In this document: positions 1,820 to 47,979 of the stretch, in pieces
Layout: every line of letters begins with the position of its first letter
Numbering within the stretch: the stretch's first letter is position 1
NCBI RefSeq assembly: GCF_001005315.1
Contig: NZ_LBMG01000002.1
Span: 124,001-188,000 of the forward strand
Origin: Kordia jejudonensis
GTDB lineage: Bacteria; Bacteroidota; Bacteroidia; Flavobacteriales; Flavobacteriaceae
DNA: 64,000 nucleotides
Direction: 5' to 3'
Position numbers and translations under genes: made by a program
Notes under the pieces: model-generated
Database searches by the model: none
Told to the model about the DNA's origin: nothing
The model's input: the letters and a program-made list of their open reading frames with translations, nothing else

Positions 1820-2047
1820 ATGAAGAAAAAAAGTTTAAAAAATTTAGGATTAAAAAAAGAGTCAATCTCTAATTTAAGTAATACTGTTACTGGTGGAGAA
1901 AGAGGAGGAGAAAGTACAAACATGTTTTGTCCTACTACATATTGTAGTCAATTCACTTCTTGTGACTTCTGCCCAACATCAGTATGTGACACGCAAGTTA
2001 CATGCCCAACATGGGTTACTTGTGACTGTCCTGTTCTAACTGAATAA
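1820..2047 (+). CDS. Cys-rich RiPP precursor, class I lanthipeptide-like
   Basis: A 75-residue peptide with a leader-core layout. The Lys-rich leader (MKKKSLKNLGLKKESISNLS) fits the L-x-L-x-K-x-x-I-x-x-L pattern of Bacteroidota class I lanthipeptide leaders and is followed by TVTGG, a plausible double-glycine cleavage site. The core, from about residue 34, is made of Cys, Thr, Ser and Pro: FCPTTYC, CPTSVC, CPTWVTC, with nine Cys spaced mostly five or six apart. Such a core suits Thr/Ser dehydration and thioether rings, but no LanB, LanC or transporter gene occurs in this window, so any enzymes act from elsewhere. A terminator follows. The A-rich leader TAACATTAAAA sits just before the ATG. 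An unmodified metal-binding peptide is the alternative. Confidence 0.75.
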   Translation: MKKKSLKNLGLKKESISNLSNTVTGGERGGESTNMFCPTTYCSQFTSCDFCPTSVCDTQVTCPTWVTCDCPVLTE

Positions 2048-2070
2048 AACAGAGAATAAAGTAAATGGAA

Positions 2071-2096
2071 AAGCCGCCTATTGAGCGGCTTTTTTA
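2071..2096 (+). terminator. Rho-independent terminator after the first Cys-rich peptide gene
   Basis: A seven-base stem AAGCCGC/GCGGCTT with a seven-base loop (CTATTGA) is followed by six T. It lies 24 bases after the stop codon at 2047 and ends that transcript. Confidence 0.88.
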
Positions 2097-2116
2097 TTGG
2101 AAACATTTAGATAACT

Positions 2117-2153
2117 AAAAAATGCTGCTTGAAAATTTTCAGACAGCATTTTT
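2117..2153 (-). terminator. Hairpin terminator after the second Cys-rich peptide gene
   Basis: The arms AAAATGCTG (2119-2127) and CAGCATTTT (2144-2152) are perfectly complementary, and the loop itself holds a perfect 12-base palindrome, TGAAAATTTTCA (2130-2141), so one long hairpin with small bulges can form. On the minus strand it is followed by a T-run, which suits termination of the gene at 2180-2413. It stands back to back with the terminator at 2071-2096. Confidence 0.75.
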
Positions 2154-2179
2154 AGTTTTCCCTCATATCATTTTAATGA

Positions 2180-2413
2180 CTAACATCCACCATGACATGT
2201 GCGGCAATGTAACGGATCACTTAGTGGATGATTATTTGTCAAACAATTATTGGTACCACAAGCGGCAGTGCCACAATTATAGGTTCCGCAGTTATTCGTT
2301 CCACAATTTCTAGTAGGACAATAAAAGGTAATGTAACCACCTTTGATGTCGCCTAAGTTGGATACATTTGTTTTCCCTAAAAGCAGTTTACCAGTCAATT
2401 TCTTTTTTTTCAT
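2180..2413 (-). CDS. Cys-rich RiPP precursor with CGTxN repeats
   Basis: A 77-residue peptide that converges on its relative at 1820-2047. The leader (MKKKKLTGKLLLGKTNVSNL) again shows the L-x-L-x-K-x-x-[IV]-x-x-L pattern and is followed by DIKGG, a possible double-glycine site. The core opens YCPTRNC, matching FCPTTYC in the other peptide, then repeats a pentapeptide: CGTNN, CGTYN, CGTAA, CGTNN, CLTNN. It ends HCRTCHGGC. Nine Cys in total, each in the repeat followed two residues later by a Thr. Five 15-base units in the DNA encode the repeat. A TATATTTG element at 2445-2452 (minus) could be the promoter -7 box, but no clear TTG box lies at the right distance. The modification enzymes are not nearby. 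Confidence 0.75.
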   Translation of the reverse strand: MKKKKLTGKLLLGKTNVSNLGDIKGGYITFYCPTRNCGTNNCGTYNCGTAACGTNNCLTNNHPLSDPLHCRTCHGGC

Positions 2414-3872: not shown

Positions 3873-3882
3873 GGGGTTTGGG

Positions 3883-4386
3883 TTTAGTTGTTTAGTTGTT
3901 TAGTTGTTTAGTTGTTTAGTTGTTTAGTTGTTTAGTTGTTTAGTTGTTTAGTTGTTTAGTTGTTTAGTTGTTTAGTTGTTTAGTTGTTTAGTTGTTTAGT
4001 TGTTTAGTTGTTTAGTTGTTTAGTTGTTTAGTTGTTTAGTTGTTTAGTTGTTTAGTTGTTTAGTTGTTTAGTTGTTTAGTTGTTTAGTTGTTTAGTTGTT
4101 TAGTTGTTTAGTTGTTTAGTTGTTTAGTTGTTTAGTTGTTTAGTTGTTTAGTTGTTTAGTTGTTTAGTTGTTTAGTTGTTTAGTTGTTTAGTTGTTTAGT
4201 TGTTTAGTTGTTTAGTTGTTTAGTTGTTTAGTTGTTTAGTTGTTTAGTTGTTTAGTTGTTTAGTTGTTTAGTTGTTTAGTTGTTTAGTTGTTTAGTTGTT
4301 TAGTTGTTTAGTTGTTTAGTTGTTTAGTTGTTTAGTTGTTTAGTTGTTTAGTTGTTTAGTTGTTTAGTTGTTTAGTTGTTTAGTTG
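3883..4386 (+). repeat. 63 perfect copies of the octamer TTTAGTTG
   Basis: The unit TTTAGTTG repeats without a visible interruption for 504 bases, exactly 63 copies as given. The array starts ten bases upstream of the start codon of the gamma-carbonic-anhydrase-like gene, so it fills the place where its promoter and leader should be. Reading on the minus strand it is CAACTAAA. Eight is not a multiple of three and the unit gives no long open frame. Perfect identity implies recent expansion by slippage, and copy number may differ between cells or assemblies. Confidence 0.97.
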
Positions 4387-4445
4387 AAACTAATACTTTT
4401 ACATTTAAAATTTAATATTTTTTGTCACGAATTCACGAATGATGT

Positions 4446-4526
4446 TCTTGGGTCTTGGGTCTTGGGTCTTGGGTCTTGGGTCTTGGGTCTTGGGTCTTGG
4501 GTCTTGGGTCTTGGGTCTTGGGTCTT
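4446..4526 (+). repeat. 11.6 copies of the heptamer TCTTGGG
   Basis: A perfect heptamer array with eleven GGG tracts, each separated by four bases. That spacing meets the G3+N1-7 rule for G-quadruplexes on the plus strand. For the minus-strand LytTR gene upstream in transcription, the G-rich strand is the template. Confidence 0.95.
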
Positions 4527-4580
4527 AAAAAGTAGCTTTTTTACATTTATAATTCAGCATTCAACATTTATAATTTCAAA

Positions 4581-4666
4581 ATTCGTTATTCGTTATTCTT
4601 TGTTCTTTGATCTTTGATCTTTGTTTATTCGTTGAGTTGAGGAGTTGAGTTGAGTTGAGTTGAGTT
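4581..4666 (+). repeat. Mosaic of short arrays: TTATTCG, WTCTTTG and GAGTT
   Basis: Three short arrays follow each other: two copies and a bit of TTATTCG (4581-4598), four copies of [AT]TCTTTG (4596-4623), and five of GAGTT (4642-4666). The TTATTCG unit recurs almost six times at 47900-47940 beside another gene, so the same repeat family is used at separate loci. Confidence 0.85.
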
Positions 4667-4720
4667 GAAACTCATATTTTTTCATTCAACATATAAAATT
4701 TAACATTTACAATTCATACA

Positions 4721-5452
4721 CTATTTAAAATACGACAATAAATTTGCCTTTTTCGTGGCAGAAACCATAACTTCTTTTCCATTGCTTAATACTACACTTC
4801 CGCCTTTTCCTTTTTTATATTTTACAACTGCATTTACATTGACCAAGTATGATTTATGAATCCGAGCAAAAGGATATTGACTCAATGCTTCTTCAAAATA
4901 CTTTAGCGTTTTACTTACTACAATTCTGGAGTTGTTAATGTATATTTCTGTGTAATTGTCATCTGCTTTGCAATACATAATATCAGCCACATTCAACACT
5001 TCAAAACCATCTTGTTGTGGAATGGTAATTTTTCCATTGATCGTATCAATCTTGGGAGAAAGAACGGTATCTGACAAACTATCTTCTTTGGTTTTTATTG
5101 CCATGACATGATCTACCGCTTTGATAAGTTCGTCAATCGAAATTGGCTTTAATAAGTAATACGAAGCATGACTGTTTAGCGCTTCAATCGCATAATGATC
5201 GTACGCCGTAACAAAAATAGTTTCAAACGAACGATCGCCTACTTTTTCCAACAAATCAAAAGCATTTCCGAAAGGCATTTCTACATCTAAAAAAACCAAA
5301 TCTAACTCGTGATTTCGAATGAGCACCAATGCATCTTCAATATTTGATGCTTCGCCTACAATTTGAATATTTGGACAATATTTGCCAACATATTTTTTAA
5401 GGATTTCTCTACTAATTTCTTCGTCTTCAACAATTATTGTTTGCAGTTGCAT
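4721..5452 (-). CDS. LytTR-family response regulator
   Basis: A 243-residue cytoplasmic response regulator. The receiver domain (about 1-120) has the acidic pocket VEDEE (Asp10, Glu11), the phospho-acceptor Asp56 in VFLDVEMP, and the conserved Lys in LLKPIS. The C-terminal half (about 140-243) is a LytTR DNA-binding domain, with the typical DIMYCKADDNYTEIY and FARIHKSYLVNV segments. Its ATG directly abuts the stop codon of the sensor kinase upstream (TAAATG), so the pair is almost surely translated together and works as a two-component system. Targets cannot be read from the sequence. A repeat block follows the gene instead of a clear terminator. Confidence 0.95.
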   Translation of the reverse strand: MQLQTIIVEDEEISREILKKYVGKYCPNIQIVGEASNIEDALVLIRNHELDLVFLDVEMPFGNAFDLLEKVGDRSFETIFVTAYDHYAIEALNSHASYYLLKPISIDELIKAVDHVMAIKTKEDSLSDTVLSPKIDTINGKITIPQQDGFEVLNVADIMYCKADDNYTEIYINNSRIVVSKTLKYFEEALSQYPFARIHKSYLVNVNAVVKYKKGKGGSVVLSNGKEVMVSATKKANLLSYFK

Positions 5453-7663
5453 TTAGTCTTTTTTGAGTGTTAATATTACTTTTGTTCCTTGTCCGTCTGC
5501 CGATAAATCAGCAATCGTCACATCTACTTTATCTTTGTACATGTCATTTAAAATGGCAATCCGTTTTTTAATGTTCCCCATTCCTTTTGACTTTTGACGG
5601 AGTTGATTTTTCGTTTTCAATTCCATAGAGCGCTTCCGTCCTATTCCATCGTCTTCAATGGTAATTTGAAGCATTCCATCGTCTTTTTTGAAGATAGAAA
5701 TGTTAAGCATTCCTTTTTCTTCTTTGTAACGCAATCCGTGCCAAATAGCATTTTCAATATAAGGTTGTAATAGCATTGGCGGAATTTGAAAGTCTGAAAC
5801 CTTCACGTTTTCATCTACAACAATTGTATATTCAAACTTATCCTGAAAACGCATGTGTTCTAAACGCAGGTACAACTCCAACAATTCTAATTCTTTGGAA
5901 AGTGGTATAAAATCTTCATCAGAATTCTCCAAAACGGCACGCATTAAGGTAGAAAATTCAGAAAGATATCGATTTGCATTTCGTTCATCATTGATGGCAA
6001 TATAATTGTTTACAGAGTTTAACGCATTGAAAATAAAATGCGGATTCATCTGCGTTCGCAATGATTTTAGCGCTAATAAATTGTTTGCCAATTTTTGTTG
6101 CTTGCTATTTCGATACAATAGATAAATGGTAAAAACGAGCAACGAAATGGCAAATATTAGTGAGTAAATGGTGTATTTCTGACTTTGATTTGTTTCTTCC
6201 GCAAATTCTTTTTGAATGATGTTATTTTTTATACGCGCTTCACGCAACTCACGATCAGCTTCCAAACTTCGTATCCGCAATTGGTTGTCTTGAATTCGTT
6301 TGGCAAATCGGCTTGCTTGCGAAATTTCTTGTTCTCTTTTCAACACCAATTCATTGACCACTTCTACATACTCTTCAAATACTTTTTTGGCTTGATCAAA
6401 ATCGCCTATATTCTCTAAACTTTCCGATAGTTTACGTGTGGCATCTTTTTTAATGATTAAATCTTCTTTTTTGCCTGCTTCAGAAATACTTTTTTCAAAA
6501 TACGGAATCGCTTCATCATATTTTTCTTGTAATAAAAAGGCGTTTCCAATTTTATAATTAATTTTTTGAGACGTAATCAAAGTAGAATCTGCGACCGTTC
6601 CTGACAACGTTTCTTCTTCAATTCCTGACTTTTCTAAATCCTCCAAATTCTGCTTTCGCAATTCAATTTCTTTATCAAATGAATTTGTGGTATTGTAAAA
6701 ATCGGCTACTCTATTTTGCTCTACAATCGCTCTGCCTTCGTTTTGTTTTTTTGCCAAACTCAACGAATTGGAGAAGTATCCTTTAGCCGTTTGAATTTTT
6801 CCTTGTGCAGCGTAGTTTTCGCCAATTTTAGAGTTTAAGTCTGTGATTTTTGGCGTGATTAAATCTTCTTGCGCAATCGCCAATCCTTTGTTGTAATTTT
6901 CTAATGCTTTGTCATACTCTTTTAATGCTTTGTAGGCATCTCCCAAACCTTCATATACAATGGTTTGTTGATAACGAGACAGATTATTTCGCAAGATTGT
7001 TTGAAAAGAAGTGATTGCTTCATCATATTCTTTATTCAATAATTGTGTGGTTCCGATAGCAATCCACAAACTTGAAGTACTATAGGTATTTAAGGCAATT
7101 CGATAATTACTTATTGCCAAGTCATATTGTTTCCAATACACATAAATATCGCCCAAAACTGCATATGAATCGGATAGTTTCTTGTCATCTGAGCTATCGT
7201 ACAGATTCTCTAAAGATTTCTCCACATATTGAATACTTTTATCAATATCCTTTTTCTTAAACAATACCGCAGAATCGAGTAAAACACGATGTGAAGTTGT
7301 ACTTCCTTCTCGTTTTAAGGTTTTTTCCTTTATCACTTCGTCATAACCTTGCACAAGAACTTCAATGCGTTCATCACTGGTAATCATATGGTATTCTCTA
7401 CCAAAACTTGGATGTTCTATAATAAGTTGATCGCCCAAACGTGTTCGTATCGTAAATTGACCAGAACTATTGGTTTTTGTTTCTTCTCCACCAATTATCC
7501 GAATCACAGCAAGAGGAATTGGAGTTCTTTTTTCGTAACTCTTAACTTCTCCTCTTACGGTAAATATTGTGTTTTCTTTTTTTTCTCTTGATGTATTTTG
7601 TGCTGAAAATTCATGAAAAGAAAAGAGGAATACAAATACGAATATGTATGTAAGATGCTTCAT
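5453..7663 (-). CDS. LytS-type sensor histidine kinase with TPR sensor region
   Basis: A 736-residue membrane-bound sensor kinase. In order: signal peptide (1-21), a carboxypeptidase-regulatory-like beta domain (about 32-100, VRGEVKSYEKRTPIPLAV, SSGQFTIRT), a periplasmic TPR array (about 130-440; helix pairs such as GDAYKALKEYDKALENYNKG), a coiled coil, one membrane segment (about 497-517), then the His-kinase domain with phospho-acceptor His542 (MNPHFIFNALNSVNNY) and an ATPase domain with Asn638 (IENAIWHG), DDGIG (671-675) and KGMGN (693-697). This is the LytS/YehU type that pairs with LytTR regulators, here the next gene. The periplasmic TPR and beta domain suggest sensing of a protein or envelope signal, but the ligand is unknown. 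Confidence 0.95.
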   Translation of the reverse strand: MKHLTYIFVFVFLFSFHEFSAQNTSREKKENTIFTVRGEVKSYEKRTPIPLAVIRIIGGEETKTNSSGQFTIRTRLGDQLIIEHPSFGREYHMITSDERIEVLVQGYDEVIKEKTLKREGSTTSHRVLLDSAVLFKKKDIDKSIQYVEKSLENLYDSSDDKKLSDSYAVLGDIYVYWKQYDLAISNYRIALNTYSTSSLWIAIGTTQLLNKEYDEAITSFQTILRNNLSRYQQTIVYEGLGDAYKALKEYDKALENYNKGLAIAQEDLITPKITDLNSKIGENYAAQGKIQTAKGYFSNSLSLAKKQNEGRAIVEQNRVADFYNTTNSFDKEIELRKQNLEDLEKSGIEEETLSGTVADSTLITSQKINYKIGNAFLLQEKYDEAIPYFEKSISEAGKKEDLIIKKDATRKLSESLENIGDFDQAKKVFEEYVEVVNELVLKREQEISQASRFAKRIQDNQLRIRSLEADRELREARIKNNIIQKEFAEETNQSQKYTIYSLIFAISLLVFTIYLLYRNSKQQKLANNLLALKSLRTQMNPHFIFNALNSVNNYIAINDERNANRYLSEFSTLMRAVLENSDEDFIPLSKELELLELYLRLEHMRFQDKFEYTIVVDENVKVSDFQIPPMLLQPYIENAIWHGLRYKEEKGMLNISIFKKDDGMLQITIEDDGIGRKRSMELKTKNQLRQKSKGMGNIKKRIAILNDMYKDKVDVTIADLSADGQGTKVILTLKKD

Positions 7664-15422: not shown

Positions 15423-15494
15423 TGTTAGACTGTTAGACTGTTAGACTGTTAGACTGTTAGACTGTTAGACTGTTAGACTGTTAGACTGTTAGAC
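15423..15494 (+). repeat. Nine perfect copies of TGTTAGAC
   Basis: A 72-base perfect octamer array in the gap between the convergent MscS and tsaB genes, directly after the MscS stop and just before their shared terminator. Confidence 0.96.
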
Positions 15495-47811: not shown

Positions 47812-47979
47812 GTTTGGGTGTTGGGTGTTTGGGTCGCTATGCTTTTGGGTTTTGGGTGTTGGGTGTTGGGTGTTGGGTTTAAGTCGCTTTGCTCCTTTGT
47901 TATTCGTTATTCGTTATTCGTTATTCGTTATTCGTTATTCAAAAATACTTTTACATTCAACATTTATAATTCATCATTC
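47812..47979 (+). repeat. Second repeat block: GGGTGTT and TTATTCG arrays
   Basis: Between the P450 start and the ruvB stop. It holds degenerate G-rich repeats, with three perfect copies and a part of GGGTGTT (47854-47877; four GGG tracts, a G-quadruplex pattern), a doublet TCGCTATGCTTTT/TCGCTTTGCTCCT, five full and one partial copy of TTATTCG (47900-47940), and an AT-rich tail with CATTCAACATTTATAATT (47954-47971), identical for 18 bases to 4558-4575. A TATTTTTG on the minus strand (47940-47947) might serve the P450 gene. Confidence 0.9.

Follow-up and report, generated by a model that had tools for sequence, protein, structure and literature searches.

We analyzed a 64,000-nucleotide stretch of the Kordia jejudonensis genome (the window; NZ_LBMG01000002.1, positions 124,001 to 188,000), in which two small genes, P1 and P2, face each other tail to tail and encode Cys-rich peptides with a leader of the class I lanthipeptide type. 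P1 and P2 are probably substrates of one class I machine that acts in trans on a dispersed lanthipeptide library, as judged from sequence comparison. What was observed are the genes with their families, the way they co-occur and the common leader type; the single class I machine encoded on another contig, C143, is the most likely maker of the two peptides and is predicted to modify them. More tentatively, it could well be that every Kordia species has one split LanB-LanC-C39 machine and a scattered, fast-turning library of at least 100 precursors gained singly in intergenic gaps, which would make the LanB naturally promiscuous and the system a class I parallel to the prochlorosins, exceeding the 79 precursors of SyncM.

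P1 and P2 encode class I-type leaders

P1 and P2 are real genes. P1 (positions 1820 to 2047, plus strand, stop included) encodes 75 amino acids and P2 (2180 to 2413, minus strand, stop included) encodes 77. The sequence pattern places the leader at residues 1 to 26 in both (1820 to 1897 in P1 and 2336 to 2413 in P2), with an exact LxLxKx5L motif at residues 9 to 19 and 10 to 20, respectively, and a GG site. If cut after the first GG, P1 would yield a core (1898 to 2044) with 8 Cys and 14 Ser/Thr, while the core of P2 (2183 to 2335), if cut after its GG, would have 9 Cys and 9 Ser/Thr. Both cores contain [FY]CPTxxC, and that of P2 also has C-x-T-x-x repeats and a conserved HPxSDPLHC tail. An earlier note, made from the letters of the window, had described the L-x-L-x-K leader, the GG site and the core motif correctly, and had likened the leader to that of Bacteroidota class I lanthipeptides, with which the LxLxKx5L motif of PMC7268733 agrees. 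Its count of nine Cys in each peptide is right for P2 and wrong for P1.

A single LanB locus lies on another contig

The window is part of contig C112 (also in L186) of its own genome, here G000; L-numbers denote fetched stretches. The search for LanB/LanC, radical S-adenosylmethionine enzymes and C39 peptidases that the earlier note had proposed returned one LanB, five LANC_like places, three SPASM proteins and a C39 exporter on C143. The sole PF04738 LanB place (C143:51044-53011, E 7.8e-152) encodes a glutamylation protein of 751 amino acids, which is similar to NisB over residues 37 to 743 (8.9e-25) and to 9g04 (1.3e-50). The order of the cluster (L040) is C39-ABC (ATP-binding cassette) exporter, HlyD, two LxLxK precursors, a TPR/AraC-type protein, a PF14028 elimination protein, LanB and LanC. 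LanB is split, the PF14028 elimination protein being separate and 305 amino acids long. Weaker C39 matches were found on C101 (22.9 bits) and C24 (20.9 bits, under the cut-off).

The earlier note had called P1 and P2 orphans, which is correct within the 64 kb and incorrect for the genome as a whole, where C143 holds LanB, LanC, the C39-ABC exporter, HlyD and two precursors. Its statement that the window has no LanB, LanC, protease or exporter holds for LanB, LANC_like and C39, all matches to which lie outside C112; other proteases and exporters of the window were not searched for. A genome without any RiPP (ribosomally synthesized and post-translationally modified peptide) enzymes, which it had named as fatal to its interpretation, is not what we found, given the split LanB, LanC, C39 exporter and HlyD.

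The genome contains at least 153 scattered precursors

Searching the fetched stretches of the genome for a leader followed by a GG-like site identified at least 153 distinct precursors. They are spread over 43 contigs, with two beside LanB on C143 and 151 off the LanB contig, so that further peptides with this type of leader, for which the earlier note had suggested a search, exist on a scale invisible from the window. In L040 to L119 plus the window (363,284 bases, in stretches picked around matches), the pattern had 143 matches, compared with 0, 1 and 0 in three dinucleotide shuffles; thus, the precursor set is not due to chance. The whole window contributed two of these matches. The precursor counts are lower bounds, referring to fetched stretches only and, for the search of the genome with the class I leader model NF038153, to the best 150 of 220 candidates, which were scored. 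That search gave at least 146 matches at E<=10, and among the matches listed 27 exceeded the curated cut-off of 22 bits, 6 of them only with neighbours in frame. When 14 named genomes were used as controls, matches at E<=10 were found in five, with none over the cut-off, and none of the 14 had a match at E<=0.1.

Among the 151 precursors with distinct tails, a strict GG was present in 143, an exact LxLxKx5L in 118 and a leader Cys in 1, while 149 had at least two core Cys and 149 had at least as many Ser plus Thr as Cys. Over 1,500 random pairs, the mean identity was 0.51 between leaders and 0.23 between cores; cores compared with shuffled cores gave 0.20 (500 pairs). Many unlike cores on one leader type would be consistent with diversification; P2, however, is conserved. 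The cores of the 153 precursors consist of 11.9% Cys, 12.2% Thr and 7.2% Ser, with Ser plus Thr equal to or above Cys in 151. With Cys held fixed, Ser/Thr were enriched at Cys+2 (z 8.9) and at Cys-3, -4 and -5 (z 4.8, 4.1 and 4.7), the signals at +2 and -3 partly mirroring one another via the five-residue spacing. Around isolated Cys, enrichment was seen at -6, -5 and +3 (z 3.5, 2.1 and 3.5), and Ser/Thr were depleted after the last Cys (+1 z -3.9). This spacing appears to fit ring formation by N-terminal Ser/Thr, though it is non-specific for ring formation.

The start context of the 153 precursors has A at -13 to -11 (83 to 92%) and at -3 (85%), with hardly any G from -20 to -9. No clear operator was found as a shared upstream regulatory motif of these precursors; TAxxTTTG was in modest excess (29 sequences, compared with a shuffled mean of 14.5). 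On L094 (G000:C79:1-4000), at least five tandem precursors have near-identical core starts (FQSWTGTAEPCF) and ends and unlike middles, as if their cores had been exchanged in modules.

Leaders and LanB occur together in Kordia and other genera

A scan with the C143 LanB returned 20 loci with LanB 51 to 97% identical: eight in Kordia, six in Aquimarina, two in Psychroserpens, and one each in Lacinutrix, Leptobacterium, an unclassified Flavobacteriaceae bacterium and an Aminicenantes metagenome-assembled genome. Identity was 87 to 97% within Kordia and at most 67% to the rest. LxLxK precursors were found within the 10-kb flanks of 19 of the 20 loci, the precursor filter having been applied to real loci only; the one locus without them is on the 8,152-base Aminicenantes contig. 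In K. algicida OT-1, which can be cultured, this LanB likewise has an adjoining precursor. A hidden Markov model (HMM) built from 28 leaders of 11 LanB loci of other genera matched 148 of 1,024 small open reading frames (ORFs) from the Kordia genome at E<=0.01, and none in shuffled proteins. Of these 148, 130 belong to the 153-precursor set, and P1 was matched at E 4.5e-8 (rank 37).

We then compared 40 genomes, consisting of 11 of the genus (own included) and 29 relatives outside it, with thresholds of E<=0.001 for LanB and E<=0.1 for leader matches. Because the best 148 candidates were scored per genome, the leader counts are minimum values. Each of the 11 genus genomes carries exactly one LanB, along with at least 45 to 98 leader matches. 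The 29 relatives have 0 to 2 leader matches, five having any (1, 1, 2, 1 and 1), and LanB was found in three of them, including G020, which has LanB without leader matches.

Proposed route and findings that weigh against it

In class I systems such as NisB and NisC, LanB uses glutamyl-tRNA to activate core Ser/Thr, and LanC adds Cys. Each of the two peptides would be made from its own short gene, observed as an ORF with a terminator-like hairpin. The LxLxKx5L leader would be bound by the single LanB glutamylation protein on C143, which would activate the Ser/Thr of the core with glutamyl-tRNA, and the separate elimination protein would then form dehydroalanine and dehydrobutyrine. The adjacent LanC would join the core Cys to produce lanthionine and methyllanthionine rings. 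Finally, the C39-ABC exporter with HlyD would cut after GG and secrete the core.

Several findings weigh against this route. P1 and P2 scored 14.0 and 13.7 bits in the NF038153 model, under its cut-off. However, that cut-off is a poor boundary here, because the LanB-adjacent precursors of the same genome also fall under it (19.4 and 17.8 bits), while the paralogue L013 exceeds the cut-offs of both NF038153 (28.4 bits) and the CefA model NF038108 (38.1 bits, with a curated cut-off of 30). The P2 leader was matched by the HMM of other genera only at E 0.18 (rank 167). When the HMM was built instead from 12 leaders adjacent to LanB in Kordia, it matched 25 small ORFs of the genome at E<=0.01 but missed both P1 and P2 at E<=10; the leader motif is common, but the in-cluster leaders of Kordia form a separate branch. 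Upstream of the first Cys, Ser/Thr were enriched only at -5 and -6 (z 2.7 and 3.7), not at -3 and -4. The genome also encodes other RiPP enzymes, with four LANC_like places besides the one adjacent to LanB, and four LxLxK precursors flank the LanC on contig C160.

Alternative origins of the peptides

Alternatively, a different enzyme set may act on P1 and P2 as RiPP precursors, with the lone LanC and its neighbouring nucleotidyltransferase on C160 as the main candidate and the set on C2 as another, but we consider this unlikely. On C160 (L042:4246-6466), a LanC of 390 amino acids adjoins a nucleotidyltransferase of 272 amino acids, possibly another route to Ser/Thr activation, and the available text of PMC11118758 reports LanC with a nucleotidyltransferase around Kordia precursors. 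The four precursors flanking this LanC say little, because leader precursors are dense everywhere. G004, assembled as one contig, has at least 50 leader matches, yet its sole LANC_like match at E<=1e-8 is the one beside LanB; G005 has at least 72 leader matches with two such LANC_like matches. The C2 set (L041/L228, about 4063 to 7523) has in a row an LxmK-like kinase (67.3 bits, with a cut-off of 315), a HopA1 protein and a LanC, which we take to be class V-like lanthipeptide genes. No LxLxK precursor was found within about 9 kb of it, the nearest found being about 9 kb away. All five LANC_like proteins read as LanC-like alone on Pfam and NCBIfam, and no search aimed at LanM was made. Besides those on C143, C160 and C2, they comprise two proteins of 625 to 650 amino acids with a partial LANC_like domain, at L119:1344-4140 and L230:4833-7684, each adjoining a protein that starts with MKIVQSFWSKP; the one on L119 is DUF6734.

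It is also improbable that P1 and P2 are secreted Cys-rich disulfide (or metal) peptides that stay unmodified and use the leader only for C39 cleavage and export. A GG leader and a C39 exporter work without LanB, the peptides are rich in Cys (8 in P1 and 9 in P2), and the Cys and His-rich tail of P2 is conserved. However, all 11 genus genomes pair a single LanB with a large leader set, whereas the 29 others have three LanB and 0 to 2 leader matches; the leader motif is the class I motif given in the text of PMC7268733; and the cores are rich in Thr and Ser too. CRTCH in P2 was rejected as a haem-c motif, since the His is missing in 5 of 13 family rows. The earlier note had offered enzymes in trans or unmodified disulfide- or metal-bound peptides; the genome favours the former and leaves the latter as a rival, and we regard that interpretation as partly supported.

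The genome has three SPASM proteins, two of which are grasp-with-spasm maturases over the cut-off. Their sets, at L225:3406-6743 and L226:9395-12053 (C145 and C163), have their own small peptides alongside; the GG or MKK peptides directly beside the maturase genes lack LxLxK, and LxLxK precursors lie 5 to 9 kb from both. As a class, SPASM enzymes could be makers, because each of the 11 genus genomes has at least one SPASM match, including G008, with at least 90 leader matches and a single SPASM match. That P1 and P2 are CefA-type "Cys-every-fifth" RiPPs from such a maturase is nevertheless very improbable: P2 shares the C-x-T-x-x repeats and L013 passes the NF038108 cut-off, but P2 itself is under it (23.1 bits), P1 has no match to that model, L013 passes the class I leader cut-off as well, and two of the three SPASM proteins have adjoining peptides without LxLxK. 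A literature search for "Cys-every-fifth" found no paper.

Relation to known systems

In the available text of PMC7268733, Bacteroidetes class I precursors have an LxLxKx5L leader and GG, and occur with C39 and a split LanB as in pinensin. P1, P2 and their genome resemble these systems in the exact motif, the GG site, an in-cluster C39 protease, a split LanB and LanC, and both peptides have Cys with enough Ser/Thr for rings. Unlike the precursors of those systems, P1 and P2 lie at a great distance from LanB, with neither LanB nor LanC nearby; the survey, according to that text, covered only seven genes on either side of LanC.

ProcM with 29 and SyncM with 79 precursors, from scattered genes, are described in the available texts of PMC10783134 and PMC9872173. 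Like the prochlorosins and synechococsins, the Kordia library has many scattered precursors with alike leaders, unlike cores and one enzyme system, here a single LanB. In contrast, it combines class I LanB and LanC with an LxLxK leader, while the prochlorosins and synechococsins have class II LanM and a Nif11-type leader, and enzyme promiscuity has been demonstrated for ProcM and SyncM, whereas for the Kordia LanB it is a prediction.

The RiPP richness of Kordia is already in print. TrRiPP predictions gave as many as 176 RiPP precursors for a single Bacteroidota genome, with Kordia named as an example and lanthipeptide and radical S-adenosylmethionine types named (PMC11118758); this work shares with ours the genus and the richness, and its available text does not tie scattered precursors to a single LanB. 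Parts of other reports describe a lanthipeptide cluster in K. antarctica (PMC7477175), the richness of Kordia in clusters (PMC10734526, PMC9248904) and Bacteroidota class I peptides made in E. coli, which were fully dehydrated with the native tRNA-Glu/GluRS pair (PMC9993889). The literature searched yielded no case of a single LanB acting on a scattered class I library, and no class I precursor library acted on in trans was recognized there, subscription journals being mostly outside its coverage. If our reading is true, a class I enzyme would match the range of substrates hitherto reported for class II enzymes of the ProcM type and would be useful for ring libraries, and mining limited to LanB/LanC neighbourhoods would overlook almost every precursor in genomes of this kind. 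The genus itself offers a natural test, with one LanB, many cores, 11 species and datable gains at single intergenic sites.

History of the P1/P2 site

Relatives of P2 were found in 11 of 11 genus genomes. P2 sits at the murI site in G000, G001, G005 and G008; in the other seven, the murI site showed no leader ORF, and the best relative lies at a different locus. The leader pattern used at this site misses the G001 relative (L140), which the similarity search and the family alignment show. P1 was not seen at the murI site in the other 10 genus genomes, and its nearest relatives, 43 to 48% identical, are at other sites. In G008, the match to ompH stops opposite window position 1729 and the next match begins opposite 2145, with 47 bases between, so G008 lacks about 415 bases holding P1. 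The ompH-murI gap, taken from BLAST rows for the other genomes, is about 105 to 160 bases in G002, G006, G007 and G010, compared with 825 in the window; in the remaining genus genomes, the locus barely reaches ompH or does not reach it at all.

The rates of nonsynonymous (dN) and synonymous (dS) substitution indicate that P2 is under purifying selection. Against G008, dN and dS were 0.054 and 1.58 for the whole gene, 0.034 and 2.16 for the core, and 0.096 and 1.05 for the leader; the whole-gene values were 0.20 and 1.28 against G005, and 0.17 and 1.81 against G001. The dS values are near saturation.

The gene arrangement was as the earlier note had read it, with convergent small genes, each with its own terminator, between ompH and murI. 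The flanking genes encode two OmpH-like proteins (Pfam OmpH, 7e-34 and 3.2e-28) and a MurI-type racemase (Asp_Glu_race, 7.4e-20). Terminator-like hairpins with T runs follow P1 at 2060-2100 (2064 to 2098, plus strand; -18.7 kcal/mol, z -4.83 against shuffles) and P2 at 2110-2165 (2118 to 2157, minus strand; -18.5 kcal/mol, z -4.96). A simple terminator scan reported the P1-side hairpin alone and placed it on the minus strand. The matches of P1 and P2 to Pfam C5HCH (E 0.33) and Pentapeptide_2 (E 0.57) were weak, under the cut-off and dismissed. With P2, a PDB sequence search gave 0 matches, and the plasmid collection searched gave none.

Elsewhere in the window, perfect tandem arrays were found at 3882-4386 (GTTTAGTT, 63.1 copies) and 4446-4526 (TCTTGGG, 11.6 copies), with smaller ones at 15423-15494 (TGTTAGAC, 9 copies) and 47899-47940 (GTTATTC, 6 copies).
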